Below are positions 1-36,357 of a stretch of DNA of 64,000 nucleotides, in pieces (positions within the stretch are counted from its first letter, which is position 1; every line of letters starts with the position of its first letter). The notes under the pieces are model-generated. The model saw only the letters and a program-made list of their open reading frames with translations. It did no database searches and was not told the origin of the DNA. The stretch spans positions 1 through 64,000 of the forward strand of contig AP026169.1 of the NCBI GenBank assembly GCA_030295235.1, read 5' to 3'. The position numbers and the translations under genes are program-made. The stretch is from Fistulifera solaris. Its lineage: Eukaryota; Bacillariophyta; Bacillariophyceae; Naviculales; Stauroneidaceae.

Positions 1-113
1 AACCTAACCCTAACTCCTAACTCCTAACCCTAACCCTAACCCTAACTCCTAACCCTAACCCTAACCCTAACCCTAACCCTAACCCTAACCCTAACCCTAA
101 CCCTAACCCTAAC
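1..113. repeat. Telomere, (CCCTAA)n
   Basis: Tandem CCCTAA units run from the first base to about 113, so the G-rich TTAGGG strand points outward and this is the left end of a chromosome. The outermost 60 bases contain several variant units (CTAACTC-type insertions), while the inner half is uniform. The junction with the satellite is abrupt at 'CCCTAAC|TTGCAC'. Confidence 0.97.
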
Positions 114-3100
114 TTGCACTTGCACAACGACTTGCACAACTTGCACTTGCACTTGCACAACCTGCACAATGCATTTGCACTTCTGCACAACGCACTTGCA
201 CTACTTGCACACTTGCACTTGAACTTCTTGCACTTGCACTTTAACAACGACTTGCACAACTTGCACTTGCACAACGCACTTGCACTTGCACTTGCACAAC
301 CTGCACAATGCACTTGCACAACCTGCACAATGCATTTGCACTTGCACAACACACTTGCACAACTAGAACTTGCATTTGCACAACTTGCACAACGCACTTG
401 CCAACAAGCTGCACTTGCACTTGCACTTGCACAACGACTTGCACAACTTGCACTTGCACTCTATCAACCTGCACAACTTGGAAAACGACATGCACAACGA
501 CTTGCACAACTTGCACTTGCACTTGCACTTGCACAACCTGCACAATGCATTTGCACTTCTTGCACAATGCACTTGCACTACTTGCACACTTGCACTTGAA
601 CTTCTTGCACTTGCACTTTAACAACGACTTGCACAACTTGCACTTGCACAACGACTTGCACTTGCACTTGCACAACCTGCACAATGCACTTGCACAACCT
701 GCACAATGCATTTGCACTTGCACAACACACTTGCACAACTAGAACTTGCATTTGCACAACTTGCACAACGCGACTTTGCCAACAAGCTGCACTTGCACAA
801 CGACTTGCACAACTTGCACTTGCAAAACCTGCACTTGCACAAAGAACTTGCACAACTTGCACTTGCACAACATGCACAACGACTTGCACTTGCACAACCT
901 GCACAATGCACTTGCACAACCTGCACAATGCATTTGCACTTGCACAACACACTTGCACAACTAGAACTTGCATTTGCACAACTTGCACAACGACTTGCCA
1001 ACAAGCTGCACTTGCACTTGCACTTGCACAACGCACTTGCACAACTTGCACTTGCCAACAACTTGCACTTGCACTTGCACTTGCACAAAGAACTTGCACA
1101 ACTTGCACTTGCACAACATGCACAACGACTTGCACAACTTGCACTTGCACTTGCACAACTTGCACAACGCGACTTGCATAACTTGAAGAATGCACTTGCA
1201 CAACCTGCACTTGCACAACACACAACTTGCACTTGCAGAACTTGCACTTGCACTACTTGCACAACTTGCACACTTGCACTTGAACTTCTTGCACTTGCAC
1301 TTGCACTACTTGCACACTTGCACTTGAACTTCTTGCACTTGCAATGTAACAACGACTTGCACTTGCACTTGAACAACACACTTGCACTTGCACTTGCACT
1401 TGCACAACTTGCACTTTCATTTTGCACTTTGCAAACGCGACATGCACAACTTGCACTTGCACAACGACTAGCACAACATGCACTTGCACTTGCACTTGCA
1501 CAACCTGCACAATGCATTTGCACTTCTTGCACAACGACTTGCACAACTTGCACTTGCACAACTTGCACTTGCATTTGCACTTGCACTCGCGACAACTTGC
1601 ACTTGCACAACGACTAGCACAACATGCACTTGCACTTGCACAACCTGCACAATGCATTTGCACTTCTTGCACAACGCACTTGCACTTGCACAACTTGCAC
1701 TTGCACTTGCAAAACGACATGCACAACTTGCACTTGCACAACGACTTGCACAACTTGCACTTGCAGTTGCACTTGCACAACCTGCACAATGCATTTGCAC
1801 TTCTTGCACAACGCACTTGCACTACTTGTACACTTGCACTTGAACTTCTTGCACTTGCACTGTAACAACGACTTGCACAACTTGCACTTGCACAACGACT
1901 TGCACTTGCACAACCTGCACAATGCATTTGCACTTCTTGCACAACGCACTTGCACAACTTGCACTTGCATTTGCACTTGCACTCGCGACAACTTGCACTT
2001 GCACAACGACTTGCACATCGACTTGCACAACCTGCACAATGCACTTGCACTTGCACTTGCACAACCTGCACAATGCATTTGCACTTCATGGAAAAACGCA
2101 CTTGCACAACTTGCACTTGCACAACTTGCACTTGAACTACTTGCACTTGCACTTGAACAACTACTTGCACAACTTTCACACTTGCACTTGAACTTCTTGC
2201 ACTTGCACTTGCACTACTTGCACAACTTGCACACTTGCACTTGAACTTCTTGCACTTGCACTTGAACTTCTTGCACTTGCACTTGAACAACGACTTGCAC
2301 TTGCACTTGAGCAACACACTTGCACTTGCACTTGCACAACTTGCACTTGCACTTGCACTTGCACTTGCAAAACGCACATGCACAACTTGCACTTGCACAA
2401 CGACTTGCACAACTTGCACTTGCACTTGCACTTGCACAACCTGCACAATGCATTTGCACTTCTTGCACAACGCACTTGCACTACTTGCAGACTTGCACTT
2501 GAACTTCTTGCACTTGCAATGTAACAACGCACTTGCACAACTTGCACTTTCACAACTTGCACTTGCATTTGCACTTGCACAACGCACTTGCACTTGCACA
2601 ACACACTTGCACAACTAGAACTTGCATTTGCACAACTTGCACAACGCACTTGCCAACAAGCTGCACTTGCACTTGCACTTGCACTTGCACAACTTGCACT
2701 TTCACAACGCACTTGCACTTGCACAACCTGCACAATGCACTTGCACTTGCACAACACACTTGCACAACTAGAACTTGCATTTGCACAACTTGCACAACGA
2801 CTTGCCAACAAGCTGCACTTGCACTTGCACTTACACTTGCACAACGCACTTGCACAACTTGCACTTGCACTTGCACAACTTGCACTTGCACAACTTGCAC
2901 ACTTGCACTTGAACTTCTTGCACTTGCACTTGCACTACTTGCACACTTGCACTTGAACTTCTTGCACTTGCACTTTAACAACGACGCACTTGCACTTGAA
3001 CAACACACCTGCACTTGCACTTGCACAACTTGCACTTGCATTTGCACTTGCAAAACGCACTTGCACAACGCACTTGCACAACATGCACACTTGCACTTGA

Positions 3101-3688
3101 ACTTCTTGCACTTGCACTTGCACTACTTGCACAACTTGCACACTTGCACTTGAACTTCTTGCACTTGCACTTGAACAACGCACTTGCACTTGCACTTGAA
3201 CAACACACTTGCACTTGCACTTGCACAACTTGCACTTGCATTTGCACTTGCAAAACGCACATGCACAACTTGCACTTGCACAATGCACTTGCACAACTTG
3301 CACTTGCACTTGCACTTGCACAACCTGCACAATGCATTTGCACTTCTTGCACAACGCACTTGCACTACTTGCACACTTGCACTTGAACTTCTTGCACTTG
3401 CACTTTAACAACGCACTTGCACAACTTGCACTTGCACAACGACTTGCACTTGCACAACCTGCACAATGCACTTGCACAACCTGCACAATGCATTTGCACT
3501 TGCACAACACACTTGCACAACTAGAACTTGCATTTGCACAACTTGCACAATGCACTTGCCAACAAGCTGCACTTGCACTTGCACTTGCACAACGCGACTT
3601 GCACAACTTGCACTTGCACTTGCACAACCTGCACAACTTGCACAACGCACTTGCACAACTTGCACTTGCAGAACCTGCACAACGCACT
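114..3688. repeat. Subtelomeric TTGCAC satellite with higher-order repeats
   Basis: About 3.6 kb built almost entirely from the hexamer TTGCAC, interspersed with AAC, GAC, GCAC and similar short insertions. Longer modules recur: an 'AACTAGAACTTGCA...CCAACAAGCTGCAC' module appears about six times (near 360, 737, 958, 2606, 2766 and 3521), and a 'CTGCACAATGCATTTGCAC' module about a dozen times. Because most units are multiples of three bases and contain few stop triplets, open frames of 300-450 codons exist on both strands and in several frames (Leu-His-Asn-rich on +, Cys-Lys or Cys-Ala-Ser-rich on -). These are compositional artefacts, with no sign of a gene start, splice site or conserved domain. 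Confidence 0.93.
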
Positions 3689-6444: not shown

Positions 6445-8019
6445 TTACGGAGCTCCTTCCTGTCCCAGCCGCTTCTTGTGTCGGCGCTCTTCCAGTTCCG
6501 CTAGCGCTTTCATGTCAATATCATCATCGGGCGCAGCCACAAGTGCGTTAGCGTGATAGCTCATGTCCAAGCCCACAAGCTCTTCCAAACTGTCGGATCG
6601 TAGCCATCCCATGTAATTCAACCATAAAAAGAAGGGAGACATGACTCCGATTGGCCATCCGATAAAAAACAGCATAGCCAACAGTTGATTGGCTAAAAGT
6701 GTCGCGTCGGCTTCCCCACGGCCGAGGGAATAAAACCATCCAACATGGTCTGAGGAACCAAACGCTGCTGACACGCGGGCCGGAGAAGTAAACAATCCCG
6801 TCGCAATCAAACCCCAGACGCCGCTGAACAAATGAACAGGAATAGCATCTACAGCATCATCAATCTTCCACTTGATTAGCAAAGCGGACCCGCCAATGTA
6901 GATCCAGCCTGCCGCCATTCCAATCAGACACGCGGCCCACGGTTCAATCGTGGCACAGGGAGCTGTGACAGCTACGAGGCCACTTAACAAACCATTCATG
7001 GCCATCGTGAGACTAAAAGATAGATCGCCCGTCCGTCGTTCTTCCAAGTACAGATTGGTAAATATAGCGGTGATTGCCCCCGAAGCGGCCGATAGAGATG
7101 TGTTGATGGCGGCAAGAGCCGCAATGGATCCAGCGTTCTCCACGCCTAACAATAACGCAGAACCCGGATTGAATCCATACCCTATTGTGTGTGGAAAAGA
7201 GTGTGCGTTAGCATAGGCTGATGATGCAACTTAGATGTGAGAACTCATGGCACTTACATCCGAACCACAACACCATAGTACCCATGAGCTGCAAAGCGAC
7301 CGAATGCCCGGGAAAATCTTTCGGAACAGCTAAGGGCGCTCCTTTGGCATCATAAAAACGACCCTTTCGAGCACCTAAAATCTTGGCGGCAATCAGAGCC
7401 GTCATTCCTCCAGTAGTGTGTACAACACCGCTACCCGCAAAATCAATGGCACCGATTCCTCCCAGTGGATTGGGTTGCGTAGCGCTGAGAAATCCGTACG
7501 AGCTCCAGATGGCACGAGCCGAGATGGGATATACAAAACCTGTCAAAAACAAACTGTACATCAAATAGGCGGCCATTTGGCAACGTTCCGCTAAAGTGCC
7601 GGCAACAATCGTCACGGCTGTTGCCGAGAAAGCGTATTGAAAGAACCAAAACGCCGGATCCACATCACCCATGTATAAAAAGCTACCAGAGCCGATGTAC
7701 GACGTGTCACCGGAACCAGGTTTACCAAAGGCAAAAGCAAAGCCGGTGACATACCAAGCCAAAGCAGCGCCACAGGCGTCGAGTAAATTCTTCAGCATCG
7801 TGTTTTGTACGTTTTTCTTGCGCACACAGCCGGCGCAAAGCATCGCAAATCCAGCTTGCATGAAAAGACTAACGCACCAGTTAGAACAAGCAGCCAGGAA
7901 TGTGTATTAGAGATTGCCGCTTGTGCCTCGGCCTGCAGCTGGTCGGCGATGCACTGCAACACTGCATCCGTCTCGCCATGGTATTCGACGGCGCAGCTCT
8001 GATAAAGCGTGTGACTCAT
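6445..8019 (-). CDS. Ammonium transporter (AMT family), copy 1
   Basis: Integral membrane ammonium/ammonia channel of the AMT/Rh family (AMT1-like), expected in the plasma membrane. Start ATG at 8019 (MSHTLYQSC); stop TAA at 6445. Recognisable family blocks in order: MQAGFAMLCAGCVR at the first membrane helix, GSGVVHTTGG, ARKGRFYD, GHSVALQLMG, WFGWYGFNPGSAL, AMNGLLSGLVAVTA, DAVDAIPVHLFSGVWG. One GT-AG intron, 7182-7257 (76 bp), splits the Trp codon of WFGW. A one-base phase offset falls at the A4 run 7863-7866 (T4 in the gene, five expected) just before MQAGF. The C-terminus is a short charged cytoplasmic tail. The adjacent gene at 9003-10687 is a close tandem copy on the same strand. Confidence 0.93.
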
Positions 8020-9002: not shown

Positions 9003-10687
9003 TTATAGGTTGCACTCAGGGCGCTCCTTCTTGTCCGGTGCGCTTTTGTGTTTTCTTTCCTCCAGTTCAGCCAGCGCCTTCTCATCAACATCGTCGTCTC
9101 GTAGCACCGTTGGTGCGTTCACATGATAAGCCATATCCAGACCCACCAACTCTTCCAGGGTATCCGATCGTAACCATTTCATATAGTTCAACCACAAGAA
9201 GAAAGGGGTTATTGTTCCTAACGGCCATGCAAGTAGAAACAACACAGCCAAGATTTGATTTCCCAAAAGTGTCGCGTCGACTTCTCCTCGTCCAAGAGAG
9301 TAAAACCAACCCACATGATCCGAAGAACCAAATGCGGTGAGTATGCGAGTCGGGGCCGTAAATAGCCCGGTCGCGATCATGCCCCAAACGCCACTAAATA
9401 AATGAACTGGAATCGCATCCACAGCGTCATCGATTCTCCATCGGATGAGCAAAGACGACCCGGCAACGTAAATCCAGCCTGCTGTCATTCCGATCAGACC
9501 AGCCGCCCACGGTTCGATAAGAGCACAAGAAGCTGTGACAGCCACGAGTCCGCTCAATAGACCGTTCATAGCCATGGTTAGGTTGAAGGACAAGCCCCCG
9601 TTCGTCGCTCTTCCAGGTACAATTCGGTGAACATTGCCGTTATGGCCCCAGAAGCACCCGAGATCGATGTATTGATGGCAGCCAGAGCGGCAATCGGACC
9701 GGAATTCTCCACTCCTAGCAGCAACGCAGATCCTGGATTAAATCCATACCCTTTATAGTGTGAATAGAGTAAGAATAAGCATCCAAAAGGATTGATGAAG
9801 TTGAGCGAAAAGGAGAAACGCGTCACTTACAGCCAAACCACAACATCATCGTCCCCATGAGTTGCAGAGCGATCGAATGACCGGGAAAATGTTTTGGTTT
9901 GGACAATGGTGACCCTTTGGAGTCATAGAATCGACCTTTTCGAGCTCCCAATATCTTCGCAGCAATCAGAGCTGTCATTCCTCCAGTAATATGAACGACA
10001 CCGCTGCCAGCAAAATCAATGGCTCCAATTCCTCCTAGCGGATCGGGCTGCTTAGCACTTAGGAATCCATGCGAGCTCCACATGGCACGAGCCGACATGG
10101 GATAGACGAACCCAGTCAAAAACAAGCTGTATAGTAGATAAGCGGTCATCTGACAGCGTTCAGCCAATGTACCGGCTACGATAGTAACAGCCGTCGCCGA
10201 AAAGGCGTATTGGAAAAACCAATAGGCCGCGTCAACATCTCCAATGTACAAAAAACCACCTGTGCCGATAAACGAAGTTTCGCCCGATCCAGGTTGACCA
10301 AAGGCAAAAGCGTAACCGGTAGTATACCAAGCCAAAGCAGCGCCACAAGCGTCGAGTAAATTCTTGAGCATTGTATTTTGTACGTTTTTCTTGCGCACAC
10401 AGCCTAAAAACGAGTTGAAAAGCAAAGGAGTCTTTGCGTGAGACACTTTATGGAAAAGAACGATGCGCAATTGATCAGTGTTGACGAATTTCGACTTACC
10501 AGCACAAAGGACTGCAAAGCCAGCTTGCATGAAAAGAGAAGTGCAGCTGACAAGACGAGAAGCCACGTGTGAGTGTCTAAAGCGGCTTTTGGGTCTCAGC
10601 CTGTAGTTTATCGGTAATACATTGTAGAACGGCATCGGTCTCGCCTTCGTAAAGGATTGCGCAGCTCGAGTAAAACGAATTACTCAT
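9003..10687 (-). CDS. Ammonium transporter (AMT family), copy 2
   Basis: Tandem paralogue of the upstream-neighbour AMT at 6445-8019, with the same blocks (MQAGFAVLCAG, GSGVVHITGG, WFGWYGFNPGSAL, DAVDAIPVHLFSGVWG). Start ATG at 10687 (MSNSFYSSC); stop TAA at 9003. Two GT-AG introns: 10404-10499 (96 bp, inside the Gly of LCAGC and absent from copy 1) and 9751-9830 (80 bp, at the shared WFGW site). One-base phase offsets coincide with homopolymers at 10587-10590, 10532-10535 and 9595-9599. Each is repaired by one extra base in the run and restores residues conserved with copy 1, so I read them as consensus errors. Role: ammonium uptake at the plasma membrane. Confidence 0.9.
10404..10499 (-). 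other. Copy-specific intron in AMT copy 2
   Basis: 96-bp phase-1 GT-AG intron (GTAAGT...TTTTAG) located between MLCAG and CVRKK. The tandem copy at 6445-8019 reads straight through the same codons, so the intron was gained here or lost there. The exon bases GCTG occur on both sides of the intron. Confidence 0.8.
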
Positions 10688-11874: not shown

Positions 11875-12718
11875 CTAATCAATTGATGTCTTGTACCTCT
11901 TTACGCCTTTCGCTTTAAACTCTCTTTTCAGCATACGCGACCTTTAGTAATACTGTTTTCGACTATCTCGGCGTCGATTCCGATCAGCATTTAAGACCAT
12001 AATCCAGACCAAAGCTGAAGTCTTAACGCAATCTAGTAAGCCATGCAGCAAGTCTATTGCGGGTTTGTATGCCGCCTGGGGCTGCTATTTATTTAAGGAT
12101 GTGGCGCACTTTTGTTTTTTTAACCGAACTTGGCTGTTTTAAGATTTGTCGATGTACCAGATATCGTGCTATGCTCGTAGGTCCTCCTTCTCTCTAGCCA
12201 ATATTCACTATCAACCGTCTTATGCTCATGCCACCTAAAAAAGTCAATATACTGATTTTGAATTGCATGTGGTTGTGGGAGAGAACGATGGATTTGTGAT
12301 TATTATTTGTGATCGTTCGTGACAGAGTGTGCCTTGGCCACTTCGGTCTTCGGTGTCGATTGTCGATCAAACGCTATGGGACATTTCACATTTTATTCTA
12401 TAGAGTGCACGAACACAAAGAAATGATGATCAGGCCCAATTTAAGAAGCCTACCTGAGAAACTATCATAAGAAAAGTACTTCGTTTTAAAACTCTGATTC
12501 AAGCTGGTTCGTGGATGACGTTTTGAGGTCACTGAAACACATTGAGCACAGCACGGAGAAACAAAGCGGTCATTTTCATGTCCAGTATCATTCTCAGCCC
12601 CTCATTCTTCGATATTATAATCGAACACAACGAACCCGTTAACGCAAACAAAAGCCTCTCAACACAACATCTACGACGTCGTCCAGAGTCGAGGACTGCT
12701 GTTACTTTCACAATAATC

Positions 12719-14455
12719 ATGGGCTTCCTTCGACTTTGCTCTCTGGCTCTTCTTGTCCTGCTGAAAAGCAGCGTATTAAAGGCACTCGAAGTGATAGAAG
12801 TGCCGGCTGCCAGTATGACGAAAAGCGACGGCACAAGTGTCGTCTTTACGACGGAACGCTTCGAGAGCTACGCTTTTATACGCACGGGTGATGAGATCCG
12901 ATTCAGCATTACTACCAATTCGAGTGGTATCTTTACCTTACATGCCAGTATATCGAATCCTTCCGATTTAGGAGCTTTTGCGATTACGAATAGCGAAACG
13001 TCCCAAATTTACGGAGCTTCGGTCAGTTTGCCCGTTTCACAAAGCTGGGATGAATGGCATACCATTACAGTTGACAACATTCGTCTTAGAGAAGGAACAC
13101 ATCCACTGGAGTTGACCGTCATTGAAGGCGGCTGGAAAATACAGTATCTTTATCTCGTTCAAATGGAAGAAGTCGATGTCATCGGTCCTCATCACTACAT
13201 GATTCCTGGAGTTGACTTGATGGATTTTTATGGTATCGAGTATTATCCCTACGAGAAAATTGTTGCAAAAATTGAGCGAGGGGATTGGTTTGCTTACAAT
13301 TTGCCCGTCAAGACCGCCGGAAATTACACATTGCACTTTTGGGTCGCGAGTCCAGAGGGAGGAGGGAGCTTTCGCGTTTTGAATGGCGCCACTAAGAAAC
13401 CATACGCCAGCATTCGAAAATTGCCCATGACTGGCGACTGGTTGGATTGGGCAATTGTTGATGTGCCGGATGTACAACTTATTGCGGGTAATGTTCCCAT
13501 TAATATATCGGTTACCAGCGACGGGTGGAACTTTTGCATGTTGTCGTACGAGTTATACGATCCTGCACACGATCCTATGAATACAGAAACTACTTGTGGA
13601 ACCAACTTAACAACCACAAATATGGCGGTGGGTGCCTCGACGACTTTTGCAGCCGAGACCATTTGCGACAATGAAGGCATTTCCTTCGAAACGAGTTCCG
13701 AAGGTGGCCTGAATATTGGGTGGTTGGACGAAGGCAACTGGGTTGCTTACGATGTGAACCTTGCGACTGCAGGCATCTACGACGTGGGTGTTCGATATTC
13801 TTCGGTTGATGGTGACGGAGGATTCATGCTTTCGAATTTACTCACTGGTACAGTCTATCACGTGCAGCAAGAACTCGAGTCCACGGGAGATTGGCAGGCC
13901 TGGAGTACCCTTCAAAATGCCACAGTGTCGTTACCGAGTGGTATATCTGTAATACAACTGAAGTCGTTAGGAGGTGGCTGGAATCTCCAATCTATTCAAC
14001 TGACGCGAAGAGAAGCAGGAGCTCCAGTGTCGCCTCCGGTTGCTCCACCGGTGCTACGGCCGGCAGAGTCCCCGGTGCAGGCTCCACTAATTCTTGGTCA
14101 AGTACCAGGTGTAGCCCCTGTTGGTATCACGCCTGTTCAAAGTCCGCTTCTTGCTGTACCGGGAATGCCGGTATTAGCCCCAGTTCCGGTACAAATTCCA
14201 GTAAGGCCAGTTGGTCAGGTAATGCCAATACAATCTCCAGTCCCAGCACCGTTGCCGGCGAGACCCTCGAGTACGTTGCCCGTTGTAGTCACCCAAACTG
14301 AGGGTGCTCCTGTCCGATCCCCAACGCCCCTTTTACCAGTGCAGGCGCCGATTCCATTACCAGCTCAATTAATGCCCACAACTCTGTCTCCGCTTCCACT
14401 GCAACCCGTTCTAGTACCCGCTCGAGCACCCTTTATGTCCCCTACTCTGCTGTGA
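12719..14455 (+). CDS. Secreted protein with three CBM6-like domains and a Pro-rich tail
   Basis: I chose ATG 12719 because it opens directly onto a signal peptide (MGFLRLCSLALLVLLKSS); the frame is open further upstream but has no better start. The mature part has three tandem beta-sandwich modules that resemble carbohydrate-binding module family 6: residues about 40-160, 165-280 and 295-430. Tell-tale strings are GDWFAYNLPVKTAGNYTLHF, TGDWLDW, GWLDEGNWVAYDV, TGDWQAW and GGGWNLQSIQL. The last 140 residues are a Pro/Val/Ala-rich linker with PVQAP and PVLAP motifs, as in extracellular or wall-anchored glycoproteins. No catalytic domain is seen. I infer a polysaccharide-binding protein of the cell surface or frustule. 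The frame is intact over 579 codons. Confidence 0.8.
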   Translation: MGFLRLCSLALLVLLKSSVLKALEVIEVPAASMTKSDGTSVVFTTERFESYAFIRTGDEIRFSITTNSSGIFTLHASISNPSDLGAFAITNSETSQIYGASVSLPVSQSWDEWHTITVDNIRLREGTHPLELTVIEGGWKIQYLYLVQMEEVDVIGPHHYMIPGVDLMDFYGIEYYPYEKIVAKIERGDWFAYNLPVKTAGNYTLHFWVASPEGGGSFRVLNGATKKPYASIRKLPMTGDWLDWAIVDVPDVQLIAGNVPINISVTSDGWNFCMLSYELYDPAHDPMNTETTCGTNLTTTNMAVGASTTFAAETICDNEGISFETSSEGGLNIGWLDEGNWVAYDVNLATAGIYDVGVRYSSVDGDGGFMLSNLLTGTVYHVQQELESTGDWQAWSTLQNATVSLPSGISVIQLKSLGGGWNLQSIQLTRREAGAPVSPPVAPPVLRPAESPVQAPLILGQVPGVAPVGITPVQSPLLAVPGMPVLAPVPVQIPVRPVGQVMPIQSPVPAPLPARPSSTLPVVVTQTEGAPVRSPTPLLPVQAPIPLPAQLMPTTLSPLPLQPVLVPARAPFMSPTLL

Positions 14456-17798: not shown

Positions 17799-18258
17799 TT
17801 GCCAACCAACAACATTGTTATTATTTTGTGTTTAGTGTGTTGCGTTTTTGGTTGGACGGAGTTTTGTGCGGTCAAGGAGGTCAACATTACCCGGGACTGC
17901 GATTATTGCGAGTCGCGGAAAAAGACTGAATTTTTATTGCCGCTAGGAAAATCGGCACAATTTTATTCCTACACAATCGTCAAGATGAACAACGTCAAGA
18001 AAATCATACTCCGTAAGTAAATAATGTGTACCATTCAACTTTATAAGTTTATCTATTATCCAACGGGTGAAAAGGATAGCTTGGATTTCAAATCAATTGA
18101 ATTCGAAAAAGGCAGCTTACTTGAAACATTGTAAAATGTAATATTTCCCTGAAGCAGCATCGAAGCTGCTTACATTGATGATTCTCTAGATGCCTTTCTT
18201 TTAAACTATGAAAATGAGAAGAACTTCCACGTCAGGATTGGATATAACATGGAAAACT
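17799..18258 (+). pseudogene. Possible remnant of a small secreted-protein gene
   Basis: A single reading frame starting near a hydrophobic segment (VIILCLVCCVFGWTEFC) continues for about 150 codons with in-frame stops at about 18018, 18132 and 18150. The part TEFLLPLGK...TIVKMNN resembles the QFLC.G..DIVKLN core of the secreted family at 18388, 21515, 23213 and 25462. There is no ATG at the expected start. A splice donor-like GTAAGT sits at 18013, but no acceptor keeps frame. I treat it as a decayed relative, at low confidence. Confidence 0.3.
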
Positions 18259-18387
18259 AAATGAGTCCCGCTTGTAAAACCAGTATGAACGGGCCAAACC
18301 TCATCGTCACTTTTCCTTCAGCAACACCAATCATCAATACTATAGTATTCACATCGGCAATCCACTCGACGATGAGATCGTAATACG

Positions 18388-18904
18388 ATGATGCAACTCG
18401 ACAAAATCCGTGTAGCCCCTCTTCTGGCTCTGCTCGTAACAAGGGCAATATTGCCTCACTCAAAGACCGCCAATATCAAACTCGATCTCTTTGATCGATA
18501 TCAAGCAAGTCAGAGAGGTCTGTTCTTATGCTATGGCGACCGAATCACTGACATTGTTCAATTGAAGTTGGGCTTGTTCGATGGTTCAACGTTTTGATGT
18601 CTGACGACTATGATGGTTATTCCTTCCGTTCCGTATGTTGTTGTTTGGTCTCAATCATGCCATTTGTTTTACAGAGGGCGTTGAGAGTCATGACATGGGT
18701 CACGTAGACGTGTATGTTTGTTCGGACCCCGATCCTGAACTATGTTGGAAAGATCCGGAGTATTCTTCCATGAGCGGCACAAAAGAGGAGGAGATAAAAA
18801 CAGTGAATGGTCCGAAAGTGTGGTACGTGATGGTTAAAGCAGTCGTGGGCACCTCGTCCTATATGAATCATCGATGTGATGAAAAACGAGCATTCTTTGA
18901 CTGA
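18388..18904 (+). CDS. Small secreted PPC-like family protein, member 1
   Basis: ATG 18388 (MMQLDKIRV) opens a signal peptide (VAPLLALLVTRAIL). The mature part follows the family pattern: FLCYG...DIVQL, YSF, GHVDVYVC, an acidic C-containing loop, VWYVMVKA and a final CDE. It is the most divergent member and the only one on the + strand. The two halves join if T4 at 18592-18595 is read as T5 and a short GT-AG intron (about 18633-18676, GTATGT...CAGAG) is removed; that restores the YSFRS to GVES junction. Function unknown. The domain recalls the bacterial pre-peptidase C-terminal (PPC) beta-sandwich. Confidence 0.6.
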
Positions 18905-19431
18905 TAATTCCGTAACGCATAGCCATCCTTGATTCTTCCGCCGAAAGAATTTCATCTCTTGTGTCGGCAGAAAATCGTGTCACAGAATCAAATAGATCCA
19001 ACTTCTTTCTCCTTTGTATGTCGCACTCAAACGAACCCACGCTACTAGGATATCAGTAAAGCACCTCCAATTGATTCTTATTGTGCATGTCATCGGGCAT
19101 GCTTACTAGGAGAGAGACGGCCCGCAGCCAACAGCTAGCACACAAGCGCATCAGAAATGCCACGTTTGCATTACCGTTGACTTTTCTGTATCATCTGTAC
19201 CGTACATCTTCGGAAAAGGCTTCTCCTTCTGTAGATTCTCATTGACAATATAGTCGATGGATGAGCATTCAACGTGGCTTACGTCATCCTTACAAAGTTT
19301 GCTACGTCACATTGACGACAAAGATTGCGCGTCCCTCTAGTGATGAGACAAGTTCCGTTACGTCGCTCCTTTCTCATTCCTTTTTCGCAATCTTTCATTC
19401 ATTCGAATAAGAAGATTGTATTATTTCCATC
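18905..19431. other. Intergenic region
   Basis: About 530 bp between a secreted family member and the bestrophin-like gene. It presumably contains the latter's promoter. The short open frames here overlap on both strands and show no family features; I see nothing else. Confidence 0.4.
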
Positions 19432-20942
19432 ATGCGAATTTCTTCTTCTTCTTATTCTTCTTTCTATTGCGTCCTCCTGTTGTTGCCGGCATGCATCGCG
19501 GCCAGCCCTCCCAAGTCGCGGTCGCTCCGCCGGCAACTTCGACGACGATGACACCGACGAAGAATTCTCCTTTGCAGAAAGTTCAAGCGGTCGTCCCTCC
19601 CATCGGCACTACTGTTTCGTCGACCGACAACAGTCCCACTACGTATGCTTTCATGAAGCGCCCCTCTGCGGATTCTGGAATGCGTTACAGCAGTAACGAC
19701 TGGTTTATTACTTTGCTTGCAACACCGACTTCTTACATCTTGCGTCGCATCGGAAGTCACTTTCTCTTCAATTTAATGATCAGTATTGCCGTCGCGTATG
19801 CTTCAATTCGTTATCCGGATATCAATTTATCAATTCCCATGGTCGGACACAATCTCTTGGGTTCGTCGCTCGGTCTGCTGTTGTCGTATCGCACGAACTC
19901 GGCGTATGCACGCTTCTGGGAGGCACGCGGATACTGGACGCAATGCAAATCGACTTGCCGCAACTTGGCGACTATGATGCAATCCTACATATCGCATCAT
20001 TCCCCAAAGTCTGCAGAAAAGTTCTTGGTCTATTTAGCTGCCTACCCTCTCGCTCTTATGGTACGAAGAATGCTCGAGTATAATCCGTTGAAACATTCCC
20101 CTTTCACTTAAGCCTTTCCTTTCACTGACCCTACCCCTAAAACAGCACCTTTGTCTTGGTGGGCACGCCATCCTGTCGGAACAAGTGCAAAAACTGATTC
20201 CACAGCCCGCGTATCCTGAACAATTCTACGAGAGCCCTTCCTTGCCGGCAATCTTATTGGGCCGTGAATTGCACAACTTGTTGCGCCAGGCGGCCGACGA
20301 ATCGCCCACCAGTCAACGACACTTGGTGGAAGCCAAGCACTTGTGCGAATGCAGTCACATGGTGGATAGTTTAATCAGTAGTATGTCGAGCTGTGAAAAG
20401 ATCTTGCGTACGCCTGTGCCGTGGACGTATTCGCGACACACGTCGCGCTTCCTGACGCTTTGGATGGGCACTCTCCCTTTGCTCTCGTCGGTACGGTCAA
20501 GCCTTTCATGATTGTAGCCGTGGTAGCTGCAACGTCCTTTTGCATGTTCGGAATTGAAGGTAAGTACATAGACGTCGCGGACAACTCACGTTCAATCGCG
20601 TTGCTAACCAATTAACTTTAACCATGCGTCGCGCGGGTTTTGGCTTTTATCAATAGAGCTGGGCCATTTGATAGAGCAACCGTACCTCGGTGATCCACTG
20701 GGAAGCGATGATATGTTTGTGGCAGGTCGAATGGAAAATGGTAAACTGACGGATTTAATGGAGCGCGGTCAGAAGACTCGTCCATACGATATTGGTATTC
20801 CGGTCTGCTCTTTGGCGGTACAAATACGCAAGGAAGTGCAGTTGATTGCTTCTATTGGAGGTAAGAAGCATTAAAAGGAAGAAAGACTTTGATCAGAGAC
20901 GAATAGTTTATGGCAACAGGTTTTGAAAGGAGTAGTGCTTAG
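19432..20942 (+). CDS. Bestrophin-like anion channel
   Basis: The preferred ATG is 19432, which gives a signal peptide (MRISSSSYSSFYCVLLLLPA) and joins the main frame if one C is added near 19502. The core matches bestrophin-family channels of algae: SSNDWFITLLATPTSYILRRIG, GLLLSYRTNSAYARFWEARG, CRNLATMM, ILRTPVPWTYSRHTSRFLTLW and the GIPVC-like segment. Introns: 20061-20145 (85 bp) and 20560-20656 (97 bp). A possible third, 20861-20919, would replace the stop at 20874 by one at 20942. A one-base offset lies near 20477 (LPFALVGTV is restored by one base). In green algae and diatoms such proteins conduct chloride or bicarbonate in the thylakoid; the presequence fits plastid or secretory routing. 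Confidence 0.8.
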
Positions 20943-21039
20943 ATTCGAGAACCGGTGTGACTACGGATTTATACCGGGTATAGTCAACTTTAACCCTACT
21001 GATATGAAAATGGTTCATTTGTTTTTACTACGTAATAGA

Positions 21040-21515
21040 TTACGGTAGGGGCAAGTTCTCGTCGCATCGGACTGAGAACGAAGTCGGCGCCAAGCCCGCC
21101 TTGACGATCACATACCAGGTTTGCGCTCCTACAATCGTAGCAACAGATTCGCTAGTACCACTTTCGGTCGAGGAATCGTGTGGGTTTTCCATGCAGGCGC
21201 CGGCATCGGAGGTATCGCAAATGAACAAATCGACATCGCCGTTGTCGCCTCCTGTAGTGACGCATTCGGCGATGTTCGTTTCTGTGGTCACGGTGAACGA
21301 ATAGCGACGAAAAGGTTCGCACCCAACACAGACGTTCTGGTGGCTTGACCGTCGTTCAGTTTGACGATATCAAAGTCTTCTCCCAAACACAGAAACTGGT
21401 TCCGGCGCCCACCAAACAAATTCATGTCGATGGCTGAGCTTTGGCCTAAAGAAAGGGCCAAACTTGACAGCATCAAAGCAAAGAAAGTGGAACCACAAGT
21501 CCTGTTGAAAGTCAT
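21040..21515 (-). CDS. Small secreted PPC-like family protein, member 2
   Basis: ATG 21515 gives a signal peptide (FFALMLSSLALSLGQSSA) directly followed by the family signature LFGGRRNQFLC, DIVKLNDG, NGDVDLFIC, QTWYVIVKA and a terminal VRCDE. The mature protein is about 130 residues with five conserved Cys. A one-base offset near 21310 (NLFRRYSF expected) separates the two halves. The protein is probably secreted or surface-bound. It is closely related to members 3 and 4, also on the - strand. Confidence 0.75.
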
Positions 21516-21970
21516 GGTCTCGGTTGAATGTTTTGGTAGAAGAATCGATGACCTTTTTCTTCAGCAAGTATCTGGTAGAATTATTATGAGATGAGATTCA
21601 AATGATCGATGCATTCTTCGGTCTCCGATGCCGGCAGAAAACGGCACATTTTTGTTTTCGGTTTTCGGTGAAACTTACGTAAACGCCCAATGCGTTGGCT
21701 CGGTCATCGATGATTTCGTTCTGTACAGACTTGCCCGAGTTTCAGGATCTTCAGGATTCAGGATGCTTCATTTTTTTAATAAAAAGCAAAAAACTCTACT
21801 GGTAGCCTACAGTCTACAGAATGTACCAAAAGTTACTCCGTTTTATTTTTACGACCTGTAATTCTGAATTCTACCCCGTATCCGTCACATGAGTCGTCGT
21901 TGTCAACGTTTTCAATCGCCTGCGTCCAGTCGTCAGTCGTCAGTCTTAGGAGCGGGGATAGCAGTCACTA

Positions 21971-22513
21971 TAGTTCGTCATAAACATGTTTATGAAAAAT
22001 CGTATGCAGTTTATGCAAGTTTATTCAGTTTATTGTCTGTCCCTCGTCCCGCTCGCACCAGCAGAGGTTATCCCGTCTTCAATGATTTTAGACATATCTA
22101 AGTATGTTAAATTGCTCCACATTTGAATGGTCAACAACTATTTTGATGGTGGCTTTGAATGTTGGACGAATTTATGCACCTTTTCTACTTTTTAACATCA
22201 TATCTATATTTTGCGGTCTTTTGGTTGATCAGCAACCCGGCTAACCAAAGCACAACGAATAATTTTTAGGACATTCAAGCTTTCCAAGTTGTTTGTGTTG
22301 CCGTTGTTTAGCTGGTTCAATGCTCAGGGCTTAAAAACCATGTTTAGGTTGCTCTGTAATAATTCACGCATGCAAACAATGCACGCACAAACCCGTACCA
22401 CGGACAGACGCTAAAGGCATAAACATGTTTATGAAAAATCGTAAACGAATAAACACGTTTATAAACCGTTTAAACAGTTTATGTTTATTGACCAAATAAA
22501 CACGTGCCGAACT
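21971..22513. mobile_element. Candidate 543-bp inverted-repeat element with 13-bp direct repeat
   Basis: The segment begins TAGTTCG and ends CGAACT(A), short inverted termini. It is flanked on both sides by the identical 13-mer ATAGCAGTCACTA (21958-21970 and 22514-22526). Two copies of CATAAACATGTTTATGAAAAATCG lie inside, near each end (21979 and 22418); the first 16 bases are a perfect palindrome. Further TTTAT-rich motifs fill the right third. It has no coding capacity. This is best read as a non-autonomous DNA transposon or a similar mobile insertion; a family name cannot be given. Confidence 0.6.
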
Positions 22514-22759
22514 ATAGCAGTCACTACTTGTAGATACTTCTCTACGTAAACGGGCCATGGAGCAAGCGGCATGGCGCCTGGCCACATGGCCACCGAAGTG
22601 TCGCCCTAAAGATGTTTCATGGTTCATGATTCGAAATTGAAGAGTTTGCTGGAACAAATCAACGGCTGCATCAGTGCTGTGTATGATACGAAGAACCAAT
22701 CTAACTTATATTTTTCAGCAAGTTAATTGTTTTATACACTGCCATTACTCGCTGGTAAC

Positions 22760-23213
22760 TTAGAAGAGAGGAACCTCGTTACACGTGATCGTGTATTCAG
22801 AGACTTCGGGCTGCGCTTTGACAATGATGTACCAAGTTCTTTTTCCGCCAGCAGTAAAAACGGTTTCAGAGCTACTTTTTTGGGTTGCGCGACTCATGTT
22901 GGGGGTTTTGAATACACTCTTCTCCATCGGGATCCTCACAAACGAACAGATCAATGTCACCCGATCCAGTTGTCGTGCATTCAGCTTTGCTTAGACTTTC
23001 CTGGACGTAGAAGGAGTAGCGACGGAAAAGGTTTGCGGCGAGAATGCCACTCTTAGGCTCACCATCGTTCAACTTGACAATGTCAGAGTTTCTTCCGAAG
23101 CACAAGAACTGGTTTTCGCGTCCTCCGAAGAGGTTCGAGTCGACGCCGTAACTCTGACCCATGGAGAGGGCAAAGAGAGTCGTCATGAGAGCGAAGATGT
23201 TGAAAGAGGTCAT
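22760..23213 (-). CDS. Small secreted PPC-like family protein, member 3
   Basis: ATG 23213, signal peptide FNIFALMTTLFALSMGQ, then LFGGRENQFLCFG, DIVKLNDGEP, NLFRRYSFYV, GDIDLFVCEDPDGEEC, TWYIIVKA and TITC. One extra base in the G5 run at 22901-22905 joins the two halves and restores the NP-NMS segment seen in member 4. The stop is TAA at 22760. Same predicted location and unknown function as its paralogues. Confidence 0.75.
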
Positions 23214-24295
23214 GATTTGAAGTTTTTTTGCTGAAGAACTGATGAAGTTGATCGTTTTGACAAAACAAATGAATTATGAGACCAGGAAGGAGGATAATTT
23301 GCGATGGATGCGATGAACTCTTGACACGATGACCGAAAACGATTACAAAACGTAAAAGTCCTCTTCACAAGTGCCACGAAGTCATTTTCGTGCATTCGTA
23401 AGGCCCAGAGACACTATATGTAAACGTGTACGTCAATCAGATGGACGTAATGCCAGCTATCTTCTTCGTAAGATTCATCATCAATTCGAAGGCTAACGAT
23501 TTCTTGATACCGATACCGGTACCTGTCAGTATAATAACAATTTAATCGTCAGTCTTTCTTCAGTGGACATTTTTGGGCGTGGGGCATGGCACTTGGCACT
23601 TCGCACGCAGTATTGTCAGCTGGCAAGATCGAGAATGAATCAATCAAGAATCAAGATCAGCGTGTGCAATACGCAATACAAGTAGATCCAAAATAACTTT
23701 ATCATCACGGTTTGAGCTGAGCTTTCTTAGCTCTTAGTCTTGTTTGAAGTAGTAGCTAGGTAGCTAGTACTCCGTAGTACTTAACTACCAAACTCTTTGT
23801 TTTTATTTTATTCCGCTGAATGTACGTGAAACGTAAAATCTGTATCCAATCTATGATGTGAGACCTGAGACTGAGACTATCAGCTATCAGATACCAGATA
23901 CCATGTAAGACGTAAGAACGATGACTATGACCAACTCACTGACTCACGACTCCTCGTGACGTTTACTACAATATGCTGGGCGACTTAAAACTTCGTTCTT
24001 CGTTCACACTTCACACCACTACATGATATTTATATAGTCGTTTCATGTGTGTCCAACGATGACGCAGAGAACGTCAGCTGTTTCACGACCGACCAGGTGA
24101 TTGTGAGTTGTGAGCTGTGGACTGTGAACCTCTGGCTTCTGGCTAGATTGAGACCCAGTCAGACGTGAACTTTTTCCTAGGACCTGATACAACATGGATG
24201 TACAAAGGTACGGTACGTAGTGGCACCGTGCCGTACTGGTACTGTACCATACCAGTACAAGTATCTTCCAACTTCGAACGCATCACGCCGCAACA
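23214..24295. other. Non-coding interval
   Basis: About 1.1 kb without a supportable gene. The stretch near 23870-24130 is full of short diverged repeats of CAGATACC, TGTGAGTTG and GAGACTGAG type. It contains the presumed promoters of the two flanking divergent genes. No RNA gene was recognised. Confidence 0.4.
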
Positions 24296-24835
24296 ATGGC
24301 AGCGGCTACTTTATCAATGGGATGTTCACTCTGCCATGGGACGCCGATCCTCTTTCACTCCTCAAGGTGTGTTGAGTATCTCCATACGAGTAGCTTTACG
24401 AACGATCAGACAACGATATCGCAAAGACGTTTTTCCGTCGAAACCAAGGGGAACGAGGTTCGCTTACTCCGTCAATCGCGGCCGTTGACAACTACTTTCT
24501 TTTACGACTTACATTATATGCCAGAGGATTATCTCGTTGTTGGGATTTTGACGCCTCCCAAAGACGATGGGACCTGTGAAGCACAAATTCTACTCGATCC
24601 GTACGGAAGAATATTAGGAGAACAGCGTTATGTCACGGTCACTTCCTACAAAGGACGATCGACGGCCGCATCACTTTCTCAACAGTTTCGACAGCGACGG
24701 GAAGAACGAATCAAAGAAGAAGACACGAAACAGTACAGGTATTTCAGATTTGGGGATCGATTTGTCGATTGCGCTTCTTTACCCTTTGTTGTGGAGGAAG
24801 TGGATGGATTGCCTGAGAAGGAATCAACGCTGTAA
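24296..24835 (+). CDS. Uncharacterised 179-residue protein
   Basis: ATG 24296 (MAAATLSMG), intact frame to TAA at 24835. The N-terminal 60 residues are Ser/Thr/Arg-rich with few acids and could be a mitochondrial presequence. The rest is soluble, with a beta-rich LVVGILTPPKDDG...AQILLDPYGRILGE segment and a charged helical stretch (QQFRQRREERIKEEDTK). I do not recognise the family. It lies between members 3 and 4 of the secreted family but has no sequence relation to them. Confidence 0.55.
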   Translation: MAAATLSMGCSLCHGTPILFHSSRCVEYLHTSSFTNDQTTISQRRFSVETKGNEVRLLRQSRPLTTTFFYDLHYMPEDYLVVGILTPPKDDGTCEAQILLDPYGRILGEQRYVTVTSYKGRSTAASLSQQFRQRREERIKEEDTKQYRYFRFGDRFVDCASLPFVVEEVDGLPEKESTL

Positions 24836-24979
24836 CGTATTATTTCGTCTTTAAAGCTTATCCATATGTGGTTTCAAGCAACGAACGATGAAATAAAAAA
24901 AAGAGAATGGAGACTACAGGTTCGGAATAGCAATGAGTTATACCAGGTATACATCTTATCGAAGTGGGTCGTCAACCGC

Positions 24980-25462
24980 TTAAAAGAAGTCCTTTTCGTC
25001 ACAACGAACGGTGTACGTGACTGCATCCAAATTGGCTTTCACAATCACGTACCACGTCTGTGCACCGAATCCCGTCGTTATTTCCTCTTCGCTATCCGGA
25101 GAGATGGAAGAAAAGTTGGGATTGGCAAAGCAATCTTCCGCATCGGGGTTCTTACAGAGAAACAAGTCAACATCGCCGTTTTGATCATTCCCGACGCCTA
25201 CGGTGATGCACCGGGCTCGATTGAAGTTACTACGCACGGTGAAGGAATAACGTCGGAAGAGGTTCAAGCCCAAGACATTGGGACCATTCGGTTCACCGTT
25301 GTTCAGTTTGATGATGTCTGTCGTTCCTCCAAAGCACAGGAATTGTGTTCCTCGACCGCCTTCAAACAAGCTCGCTTGAATGTTGCTCGATCTACCCAAA
25401 GTGAAGCAGAACACAGCCATGCTGATGAGAACGGCAATCGATGTTGCGGCGGTTCGTGTCAT
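24980..25462 (-). CDS. Small secreted PPC-like family protein, member 4 (intact)
   Basis: The only member with a fully intact frame. I chose ATG 25462 (MTRTAATS) because its signal peptide then aligns with members 2 and 3; in-frame ATGs at 25477 and 25498 are alternatives. Signature blocks: GGRGTQFLCFG, DIIKLNNGEP, NLFRRYSFTV, NGDVDLFLCKNPDAEDC, GAQTWYVIVKA, YTVRCDEKDFF. The alternation YSFTV...DVDLFLC...WYVIVKA...YTV is what a PPC-like jelly-roll would give; this fold is inference. Five Cys are shared with members 2 and 3. Confidence 0.85.
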   Translation of the reverse strand: MTRTAATSIAVLISMAVFCFTLGRSSNIQASLFEGGRGTQFLCFGGTTDIIKLNNGEPNGPNVLGLNLFRRYSFTVRSNFNRARCITVGVGNDQNGDVDLFLCKNPDAEDCFANPNFSSISPDSEEEITTGFGAQTWYVIVKANLDAVTYTVRCDEKDFF

Positions 25463-31677: not shown

Positions 31678-33844
31678 CTACTCAGCAGCGTTTTCGACAG
31701 CTTTCACTTCCTTTGTCGTGTCGATTTTGCCGTGTTTCGACGCTCGAACTTCCATGAGCTCATCCACATCTTCCTTTCTGGGACCACTTATGTCGTACGC
31801 CGAACCGCGGTGACTGGAAATGTCCAAACCCACCTCTTCTTCCAAGGGGTCGACACGGAACATACCGGCCGCGTTCAAAAGCATGAAAAACGGGGTTGTG
31901 ACACAACTGACCCATCCAATAATCCAAAAGATACAGCAGACCTGTACCAACAAAAGATGACCATCAAAACCGCCCTCCGAGTAAAACAAACCAGGATTGG
32001 CTGAGTTGTACCCGGCAAGGTCCATTAGTTCCGGCTTGGCAAACAAGCCGGCGGCGATGAGGCCCCACATGCCGTTACCCAAATGCACGGGGATACCGTC
32101 CACGGAATCATCAACTTTTAGAGCGATGAGTAGTTTCGACCAGGCAATGTAAACCCATCCTCCGACGATTCCAATGATGATGGCAGCCCAGGGAGTCACA
32201 CAAGCCGTTCCAGCAGTGACAGCCACAAGACCACCAAGACCTCCATTCATGGCCATAGTGAGATCGTAACTGGTTTCTCCCGTCGCCATGGATTCCAAAA
32301 TCGAATCCGTAAACAAGGCAGATACACAAGCGGATGCACCGGCTAGAGTCGTCGTGACGGCACTTAGGGAAGCAACGGCTGCCGAGTCCTCGTTTGCAAT
32401 TGCGAGAGCCGATCCGGAATTGAATCCGTACCCTGGTGGAAGCAACCGAAGCCAAAGAAGGAAAGGTCAGCGTTGGCTATTCGAGTAGCGCATGAACTCG
32501 ACATTCGGTTAGCCATCAGTGGCACTTACATCCAAACCACAAAATCAATGTACCCAACACCTGAAGAGCAACGCTGTGGGGCTGGAAGGTGACGGGTGTC
32601 TCCCAGGGGTTTCCATCTTCGTCGTAGAAACGTCCCTTGCGCGGTCCGAGGATAACAGCAGCAATCAATGCCGTGAGACCACCCGTCATATGGACGACAC
32701 CAGATCCCGCAAAATCGATGCATCCCACATCGCGAAAGTAACCGTCGTTATTGAAAGCCGACAGAAAGCCGTTGGAGCTCCACATGGAGTGTGCTACGAC
32801 AGGGTACACAAAACCCGTCAAGAAGATCGAGTAACAGAGATAGGCTGACATTTTGCATCGTTCGGCGACAGTACCAGCGACGATTGTGGCACAAGTCGCG
32901 GCGAAAGCAAACTGGAAGAAGAAACTAGCCCAAGAGTTGAAGTCACGGAGTCCAAAATAACTGTTACCAATGAAGGTCGAGCCAATGTGGTCGGCTCCAC
33001 CGTATGCAAATCCGTAACCGACGGTGTAGAATCCGATCGATCCAGCACAAATATCGAGAATATTTTGCAGCATAATGTTCTTGACGTTCTTGGCGCGAAT
33101 GCACCCAGCGCAGAGCATGGCAAAGCCAGCTTGCATCACAAAGACGAGCGATCCCTATGGAAATGAATACCATGAAACGGAAATGTGAAAGCGTGACATG
33201 TAGCAAGGATTGTTTGGTCATTTCAAATAAAAAAATAGAAGATGAACCAAAGTCACAAGGAGAAATCAAGAAAGAAGATAAAAAGTGAGAGGCGATGCTT
33301 CAGCAGAACGTCCTCCTTTCGGACAGACTTTGAATATACACGCAATAAGTGGGAAAGGTGTCACCCTTCTACTCTTTGTACCGCATTCCAATTCCCACGA
33401 AGTCAGCTGGCAATAATTGACATTGCAGCTCATAGGCACGATGAGAATGTTGCAACAATTTGAACCAAACAAGCAAGGAGAATCAGCAGCATCGTCGCTC
33501 ACAAACCAATCGAATGTGATCGTAGGATAACGGCGGCGCGTATTCGATTCAAATCGAGAGGCGGCCCTCCCATTCAAGCTACAAAAAGGATTTCGCATAC
33601 AAAAATGATAACAAATCGGAAATAACACAGTCATTCCTCGTCTTGTTTTCGAATAAAAGCAGCTGAAACAGTGCTCAAAGAGCTTCGTCAAGCGCAGCAG
33701 TGTGTAGCTTTTCGTGCTTACCGCATAGATAAGATAGAAGGTATCCAAACCAGTGGTGAGGCCCATCGTAATGTCGTAAACATTACAGATTTGCGTCGCG
33801 AATTCACCGTCTCGGGCGGAGCAGTACGTTTCGATATCACTCAT
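31678..33844 (-). CDS. Ammonium transporter (AMT family), copy 3
   Basis: Intact AMT gene with three exons: 33722-33844 (ATG 33844, MSDIETYCS), 32530-33154 and 31678-32432. The first intron (33155-33721, 567 bp) is long for this locus; the second (32433-32529, 97 bp) sits at the same WFGW codon as in copies 1 and 2. Blocks: LVFVMQAGFAMLCAGCIR, GSGVVHMTGGLTAL, GPRKGRFYD, WFGWYGFNSGSAL, AMNGGLGGLVAVTAG, DSVDGIPVHLGNGMWG. The C-terminus is longer than in copies 1 and 2 and Lys/Glu-rich. It belongs with copy 4 to a second AMT subgroup (SANPGLFYSEGGFDG block). It is a plasma-membrane ammonium transporter. Confidence 0.95.
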
Positions 33845-34279: not shown

Positions 34280-36357
34280 TTAGGCATCCGCGTCTTCCGC
34301 AGCCTGAGCGACCTCTTTGGGAACTTCGACCTTGCCGTGCTTCGAGGCACGGACTTCCATAAGCTCATCGACATCTTCTTTCTTGGGACCGGTCAAGTCA
34401 TAGGCGGAACCACGGTGGTGCGAGATATCCAGACCAACTTCCTCTTCCAAAGCATCCACGCGGAACATACCAGCAGCGTTCAACAACATAAAGAATGGTG
34501 TCATGGTAAAAGCGACCCATCCAAAAACCCAGCAGACAGAGCAGATTTGCACCAACAAAAGTTGACCGTCAAAACCACCTTCCGAGTAGAATAAACCAGG
34601 GTTGGCCGAGTTGTATCCGGCCAAATCCATAAGCTCGGGCTTGGCGAATAAGCCGACGGCCAAGACACCCCACATACCGTTGGCAAAGTGTACTGGAACA
34701 GCATCGACAGCGTCATCAATCTTCAAGGCAACCAACGTCTTGGACATGGCAATGTACGCCCAGCCCCGACGGTACCAATGAGGATCGCAGCCCAGGGAGT
34801 AATGACAGAACATCCGGCAGTGACAGCCACAAGACCACCAAGTGCACCGTTCATGGCCATGGTTAAGTCGTAGCTGGTTTCACCTGAGGACAGGCCTTCC
34901 AAAATGGAATCCGTAAACATGGCAGAAATGCAACCGGCAGCGGCACCCATGGTGGTGGTGACAGCGCACAGAGAAGCGACTTGGGCAGATCCGGCGTTGG
35001 CAATCACGAGAGCGGAACCGGGGTTGAATCCGTACCCTAATTAAAATCAAGAGAAAAAGTGAGTTACGAATGGTACAAAATCAACACCCTTCGACTTCAG
35101 TCCTTGCAACTTACAGCCGACCCAGAGGATGAAGGTACCCAAGATCTGCAAAGCGACACTGTGGGGCTGGAAGGTGACGGGTGTCTCCAAGGGGTTACCA
35201 TCTTCGTCATAGAAGCGTCCCTTGCGGGGTCCGAGCACAATCGCCGCAATGAGGGCGGTGACACCACCAGTCATGTGCACGACACCGGATCCGGCAAAGT
35301 CGATGACACCAATATCGCGGAACAAGCTTTCGTTGTTAAAAGCGGAAAGGAAACCATTCGAGCTCCACATAGAGTGGACTACGACGGGGTACACGAAACC
35401 CGTCAAAAAGACGGAGTAGCACAAGTAGGCAGCCATCTTGCATCGCTCGGCAACCGTACCGGCAACGATCGTGGCAGCCGTCGCCGCGAACGCGAATTGG
35501 AAGAAGAAACCAATCCACGAGTCGAAATCACGTAGACCAAAGTAGCTGTCACCAATAAAGGTGCTACCAATGCGGTCAGATCCGCCGTAGGCAAATCCGT
35601 ATCCGACCGTGAAGAAACCAATGGCTCCACCACAGGCATCCAACAAGTTCTTGAGCATGATGTTCTTGACGTTCTTGGCACGCACGGAACCAGCGCAAAG
35701 CATGGCGAAACCGGCTTGCATCATGAAGACGAGGGCTCCCTGTTGTTAAAGTTGAGATACGACCAAGATGACAAACAGGAGAAGATCGCGCAGTCAAGAA
35801 GGATAGAGCAAGCAACCATAAAGTTGAAGATAGAGAGAAAGAAAGTGAGACGTTGTCATGCAAAGCAATCCGAATAAGGATTCTTTGACCGATCAACGGT
35901 AGGCGAAACACGACGCTCTCGCTCTCTTTAAACACACGCACGCAGCGTCAGAGGCAACACTTGGTATCGCCTCTGCAATGCTATCCCCTAAGCACAATCA
36001 GGCTTCGAAGCGATCCAAGTGGATGTTGATACTGCGGAACGACAGAGCGCGATACTACCGTTCGACGACGACGACGACGACGACAAAAACAACAACAACA
36101 AGCCTTCCTGTCTTGCTATCGGAAGACAGCCTTTGTGATGTGTCTTTTCGTTGTAAACCAGCCGCTCTAGACAACATATCTCACAACAGCAGAGGCAATC
36201 GTGTCAATACGAATGAGATCCGATCGCAACTTACCGCAAAAAGGAGAAAGAAGGTATCGACACCGGTGACAATGTCATTCGTAATATCGTAGACTCCGCA
36301 AATATGAACGGCGACATCTCCATCCGGAGCGGCGCAATAAGCTTCAAAGTCTGCCAT
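34280..36357 (-). CDS. Ammonium transporter (AMT family), copy 4
   Basis: Tandem paralogue of copy 3, with identical exon structure: exon 1 36235-36357 (ATG 36357, MADFEAYCAAPDGD, only 41 codons), intron 35740-36234 (495 bp), exon 2 35115-35739, intron 35037-35114 (78 bp), exon 3 34280-35036. Blocks: LVFMMQAGFAMLCAGSVR, GSGVVHMTGGVTAL, GPRKGRFYDEDGNP, YGFNPGSALVIANAG, DAVDAVPVHFANGMWG. A one-base offset at the C4 run 34764-34767 (VGGWAYIAM expected) looks like a consensus error. The residue after ILW is Val-Gly rather than Phe-Gly, a small deviation from the other three copies. Function: ammonium uptake. Confidence 0.93.

Follow-up and report, generated by a model that had tools for sequence, protein, structure and literature searches.

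Four copies of a small PPC-like protein family near a telomere of Fistulifera solaris

We analyzed the first 64,000 nucleotides of contig AP026169.1 of the diatom Fistulifera solaris (hereafter, the window) and found there a family of four related genes, whose small products are, with good confidence on profile evidence, divergent relatives of the bacterial pre-peptidase C-terminal (PPC) domain. Bacterial PPC domains are usually located on proteases, and the tail of a secreted protease, either cut off or serving in substrate binding, is their usual setting, although not a strict requirement; the proteins described here are not protease tails, the intact one standing alone with 160 amino acids. 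The genes, referred to below by their start coordinates, and one further open reading frame (ORF) considered for membership are as follows.

24980..25462, minus strand: intact family member, an ORF of 160 amino acids with a signal-like N-terminus and a PPC-like domain after it; the anchor of the tblastn search.
22760..23213, minus strand: family member with one frame break at about 22876-22906, carried by the overlapping ORFs 22872-23213 and 22760-22960.
21040..21515, minus strand: family member with one frame break at about 21309-21318, carried by the ORFs 21288-21515 and 21040-21291.
18388..18904, plus strand: most diverged family member, with two frame switches, in pieces 18388-18597 and 18635-18904.
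17799..18020, plus strand: ORF proposed as a remnant, outside the family by the searches made, with no tblastn or profile match and a chance hint in Pfam.

An earlier note on this DNA had proposed four related genes for proteins of about 150 residues with a set of shared motifs, and perhaps a remnant at 17799. A tblastn search of the window with the intact 25462-24980 copy bore out the four genes: the 21515 copy was matched at 21327-21058 and 21503-21309 (E 4e-33 together), the 23213 copy at 23177-22881 (E 9e-30) and 22930-22763 (E 5e-8), and the C-terminal piece of the 18388 copy at 18653-18895 on the plus strand (E 3e-18), while no fifth copy was found in the window, the next match having E 0.79. 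A family profile built from six pieces was then searched against 1956 stop-to-stop segments of the window, each at least 20 amino acids long. Its best match outside the training pieces was the N-terminal piece of the 18388 copy (7.8 bits, E 0.37), followed by an unrelated segment (E 2.8), and no further members appeared among the matches listed, which extend to E of about 11. The 17799 ORF was absent from these matches and from tblastn at E ≤ 10, and on these searches it was rejected as a fifth copy. The proposed size holds for the intact copy as a whole ORF and not for the other three, which are frame-broken. The quoted motifs are present, with drifted forms in the 18388 copy (FLCYG, TDIVQLK, GHVDVYVC and VWYVMVKA). 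DNA-level similarity between the copies is found only in stretches of 105-119 bases, with 68-71% agreement, so the copies did not arise by recent duplication. The N-terminus of the family proteins is hydrophobic, as judged by eye, and we infer that these proteins are secreted.

The relationship to PPC domains was assessed with profiles. The Pfam PPC profile (PF04151) matches the C-terminal piece of the 21515 copy with E 0.0074 (17.6 bits, below the cut-off of 25.9 bits). A PPC set was collected from 100 genomes, 26 of which gave 84 PPC matches; 30 of these, given as loci, were aligned with extensions, and seven domains were chosen from them by hand for their resemblance to protease tails. Control profiles were made from 14 PKD and 9 CBM6 domains collected by the same procedure. 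In profile-profile comparison by hhalign, the family scored 34.2 against all 30 PPC domains (probability 82) and 46.7 against the seven-domain subset (probability 94), whereas the maxima over 100 column shuffles of the family were 17.3 and 17.6, reversal of the family profile gave 10.3 and 13.5, and the scores against PKD and CBM6 were 11.3 (probability below 1) and 9.8 (probability 0.09), respectively. The similarity to PPC domains therefore lies beyond the controls, and the family shows no profile match to CBM6. When the same profiles were run against the window segments, the family pieces took ranks 1-5 and 13 with the subset profile, the first five ranks covering all four genes, and ranks 1, 2, 3, 6, 7 and 84 with the 30-domain profile. 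Among them (subset and all 30, respectively), the intact copy ranked 4 and 3, the two pieces of the 23213 copy ranked 2 and 3, and 2 and 6, the C-terminal piece of the 21515 copy was first with both profiles, and its N-terminal piece ranked 13 and 84; the N-terminal piece of the 18388 copy ranked 635 and 839. The best family piece scored 26.3 bits (subset) and 20.2 bits (all 30), compared with 6.1 and 7.1 bits for reversed segments. With the PKD and CBM6 profiles, the best family piece came 56th and 16th, and the CBM6 profile recovered the real CBM6 gene of the window at 12536-14452.

Codon-level comparison addresses whether these copies have evolved as genes. Differences from the intact copy at codon positions 1/2/3, summed over two pieces in each case, amount to 63/41/86 over 139 codons for the 23213 copy, 56/42/96 over 145 codons for the 21515 copy, and 51/44/83 over 129 codons for the 18388 copy. 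Position 3 carries the most differences in all 11 piece pairs compared, and does so on either side of every break, a pattern on which the family is judged to have evolved as protein-coding genes under constraint. An alternative is that of a decaying subtelomeric family, in which pseudogenes make up the 21515, 23213 and 18388 copies, and at most the 25462 copy still works. Three of the four copies are indeed broken in frame, the 21515 and 23213 copies by one switch each between overlapping or abutting ORFs, and the 18388 copy by two switches with loss of parts of its motifs, and the window has, in other places, several long ORFs without a break. Against this, the frames of the 21515 and 23213 copies are open and constrained outside their single breaks, and four of four non-family genes inspected by eye (19416-20615, 27380-25969, 29690-27797 and 61218-63363), which were chosen for suspicious overlapping ORFs rather than sampled at random, switch frame likewise, so the breaks are perhaps assembly indels. 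For instance, in the bestrophin gene between the 18388 and 21515 copies, the first two pieces match one Pfam profile in order and in different frames, although an intron may be an alternative cause of this first switch; the third bestrophin piece and the second piece of an M14 carboxypeptidase gene are without a Pfam match. Homopolymers of at least 4 bases occur inside the 36-46 bases around the breaks in the 21515 copy, the 23213 copy and the carboxypeptidase gene, which says little, because such runs hold 5.8% of bases and are often expected there by chance. For the nuclear chromosomes of one diatom assembly, not necessarily the source of the window, a mean quality value of 28.86 is reported.

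An intron origin of the family's frame switches was rejected on reading the translations: the ORFs of the 21515 and 23213 copies overlap or abut, and removal of a short GT..AG stretch noticed by eye in the 18388 copy would delete a segment aligned with a conserved cysteine. For the single breaks of the 21515 and 23213 copies, assembly indels are a fair explanation; genuine decay is likely for the 18388 copy. Plain pseudogenes are retained as a rival that is not accepted as proven, and for the family as a whole we regard this scenario as rather doubtful. Frame switches in otherwise open genes affect any gene call in the window.

Structure prediction and a fold search, which the earlier note had recommended, yielded beta-sandwich models of low confidence, in which matches to GOLD and carbohydrate-binding domains equal those to PPC. 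The whole-protein model, made from seven window rows, has a mean predicted local distance difference test (pLDDT) score of 60.7; residues 71-160, with block means of 71-82, form beta structure except for a single short helix, and residues 1-66 are below 50. In a Foldseek search of PDB with this model, the GOLD domain of a p24 protein (5azw) came first, together with many carbohydrate-binding modules, at E no better than 3.9e-3, and the collagen-binding domain of ColH (3jqw) had probability 1.00 at rank 28. The mature part was modeled separately (pLDDT 58.3), and this second model matched the subtilase SubHal (5fax) first, with E 6e-3, followed by KP-43 (1wmd) at rank 11, the PPC domain 5sv5 at rank 15, and ColG domains from rank 22; the probabilities were 0.93-1.00 for the subtilases 5fax and 1wmd and for 5sv5 and 1nqd, which are PPC or collagen-binding domains. 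Two BFVD matches with E below 0.001 were dismissed, being proteins of 372 and 488 residues superposed at a root mean square deviation above 16. The low-confidence models support a beta-sandwich and fit a PPC domain, and would not decide the matter alone.

Several results weigh against assignment to PPC. No family piece reaches the Pfam cut-off, the intact copy had no PPC match in Pfam, and in a second scan only one of six pieces had one. PPC profiles score up to 27.6 against PKD (probability 55) and up to 25.3 against CBM6, so an hhalign score in the twenties does not prove kinship between two sandwich families; on its own, the intact copy gave 24.0 against all 30 domains and 27.0 (probability 34) against the PPC subset, which does not exceed the PPC-PKD level. 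The second and third family pieces scored 9.7 and 8.1 bits with the 30-domain profile, only slightly above the best non-family segment at 7.2, and single PPC domains placed a family piece first in only 9 of 30 cases, the other 21 failing to do so. In the reverse direction, the family profile found no bacterial PPC protein at significance and ranked an unrelated genome-contig locus, L001 (E 0.013), above the best PPC locus, L002 (E 0.03); the former is a chance match to an ORF that we take to be a periplasmic binding protein look-alike. As to the models, pLDDT values were 58-61, neither model matched a PDB structure at E ≤ 0.001, and GOLD domains (at ranks 2, 4 and 5 for the mature part), carbohydrate-binding modules, SIX6, virus capsid proteins and other sandwiches rank as high as PPC.

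Another reading is a small secreted beta-sandwich that is not homologous to PPC, whether GOLD-like, CBM-like or of a lineage-specific fold, with a likeness to PPC that arose by convergence of the strand pattern. The GOLD domain 5azw was first for one model and second for the other and is a beta-sandwich of similar size, several carbohydrate-binding modules rank high, and different sandwich profiles reach 24-28 against each other in hhalign. However, the family scores only 9.8 with CBM6 and 11.3 with PKD compared with 34.2-46.7 with PPC (GOLD was not among the profiles), and no family piece has a GOLD or CBM match in Pfam, for GOLD at E ≤ 1, or at E ≤ 10 for one set of rows. Proteins of the p24 type are membrane-bound and belong to the secretory pathway. 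We consider convergence improbable. It is the whole family profile that carries the weight of the evidence, and our confidence in the PPC relationship was lowered only slightly, because PPC and PKD profiles score as high as they do against each other. The stand-alone PPC-like domain with conserved cysteines anticipated by the earlier note is thus supported by the controlled profile tests, and weakly by the low-confidence beta-sandwich models.

The profile similarity to bacterial PPC domains spans 74-78 columns and includes the stretches RYSF.V (Y.f.V in PPC), GDVDLF (GDADLY), SEE, and TWYVIVKA (GTWYVRVKA). The significant alignment starts at about LFRRYSF, after an L-N-x-G-x-P element that recalls, by eye, the L-x-N-x-V-P of some PPC domains. 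Unlike bacterial PPC domains, the family domain stands alone in a small protein, follows an extra N-terminal segment and scores below the Pfam cut-off. The mature part contains five invariant cysteines (residues 43, 85, 103, 111 and 154 of the intact copy), which are conserved in all rows spanning them, and past the signal region these rows are free of other cysteines; the first, residue 43, is also present in the N-terminal piece of the 18388 copy. None of the five aligns with cysteines of the seven chosen PPC domains, or with those of the PPC sequence displayed in the hhalign alignment. No other Pfam domain was found in the family ORFs.

The predicted architecture would comprise a signal-like N-terminus, about 40 residues with one conserved cysteine, and one divergent PPC beta-sandwich domain. 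The ORF has no catalytic domain, and the protein would be a non-catalytic module attaching to an extracellular polymer or partner. Disulfide bonds would form among the conserved cysteines, and since their number is odd, one may be free or available to bond covalently with a partner or with another copy of the protein. The binding role is proposed by analogy with the collagen-binding domains of bacterial collagenases (ColG, ColH and that of Grimontia hollisae), which belong to the PPC family and are among the Foldseek matches of both models. Binding to collagen, an extracellular polymer, is reported for PPC domains of some bacterial collagenases, in one case also without calcium (PMC6168687). 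The collagenase domains are attached to a protease, whereas the family members stand alone, and binding here would be an analogy only. Overall, we give about even odds to a secreted, divergent PPC family whose members stand alone and serve as non-catalytic modules for binding or adhesion; extracellular binding as the role, taken by itself, is more tentative. A more specific proposal, of a secreted, disulfide-locked surface recognition or adhesion family derived from a bacterial protease tail by gene transfer and diversified through local duplications, would be a long shot.

The same domain could instead be secreted to inhibit, chaperone or target a separate protease. In favor of this are the usual place of bacterial PPC domains and an M14 carboxypeptidase gene that shares the strand of the intact copy and lies about 500 bases upstream of it. 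This is quite unlikely, as in Pfam that enzyme carries the N-terminal domain of cytosolic carboxypeptidases and so would not meet a secreted protein, and the ORFs scanned in the neighborhood of the family genes revealed no other protease.

CCTAAC-type telomere units are common among eukaryotes. The window begins with such a repeat, (CCTAAC)n at 3-113, which confirms the near-telomere location claimed earlier, and a subtelomeric satellite of ACTTGC-type units follows directly at 111-3680. The telomere unit is the same as that reported for Phaeodactylum tricornutum (PMC9266582). The family genes are interleaved with unrelated genes and a mobile-element-like stretch, in line with the earlier note: the bestrophin gene and the following stretch lie between copies.

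21971..22513, no strand assigned: insertion-like stretch of 543 bases that separates the 21515 copy from the 23213 copy and does not belong to the protein family.

This stretch is flanked by perfect 13-base direct repeats (21958-21970 and 22514-22526), whose motif occurs nowhere else in the window, and has short inverted ends and an internal 26-base repeat; the region 21958-22526 looks like a small non-autonomous transposon. Pfam names among the nearby ORFs scanned are CBM6, ankyrin, bestrophin and M14 carboxypeptidase, and the ORF 24296-24835 is without a Pfam match. These neighbors (bestrophin, carboxypeptidase and the 24296-24835 ORF) suggest no shared pathway. In addition, a 637-amino-acid ORF at 12542-14455 contains CBM6 in three stretches (E 1.4e-36) and a proline-rich tail, and its predicted product is possibly a wall or surface protein. 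Four ORF pairs, each split at the same place (6445-7861, 9003-10635, 31678-33139 and 34280-35724), presumably resemble ammonium transporter genes.

Searches for relatives elsewhere gave little. NCBIfam had no match at E ≤ 1 for any of the six rows, and PDB had none by sequence at E ≤ 10 with either the single protein or the profile. Plasmids and phages gave two records each, at E 5 to 8 only; no relative was confirmed in three scans of viral contigs, and genome contigs yielded one locus, the chance match L001. The Pfam hints to Lactococcin (E 0.22 and 0.18), SO2946-like_C (0.13) and Bfc (0.82) were judged to be chance matches. We found no report of an algal PPC protein in the literature searched, with subscription papers outside reach. 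Relatives in other genomes may be filed as hypothetical proteins, because the Pfam PPC profile misses three of the copies and scores the fourth below its cut-off.

The earlier description of an undescribed system was overstated: the family is best read as a known binding domain in divergent form, and the neighboring genes examined suggest no joint system. The domain itself is known; what may be new is its stand-alone, small, cysteine-conserved, multi-copy form in a eukaryote. A binding domain of bacterial protease tails would be used here alone, as a small, probably secreted, multi-copy protein, and if the binding role is true, the family members would become candidate factors in building the wall, in adhesion or in contacts with bacteria.

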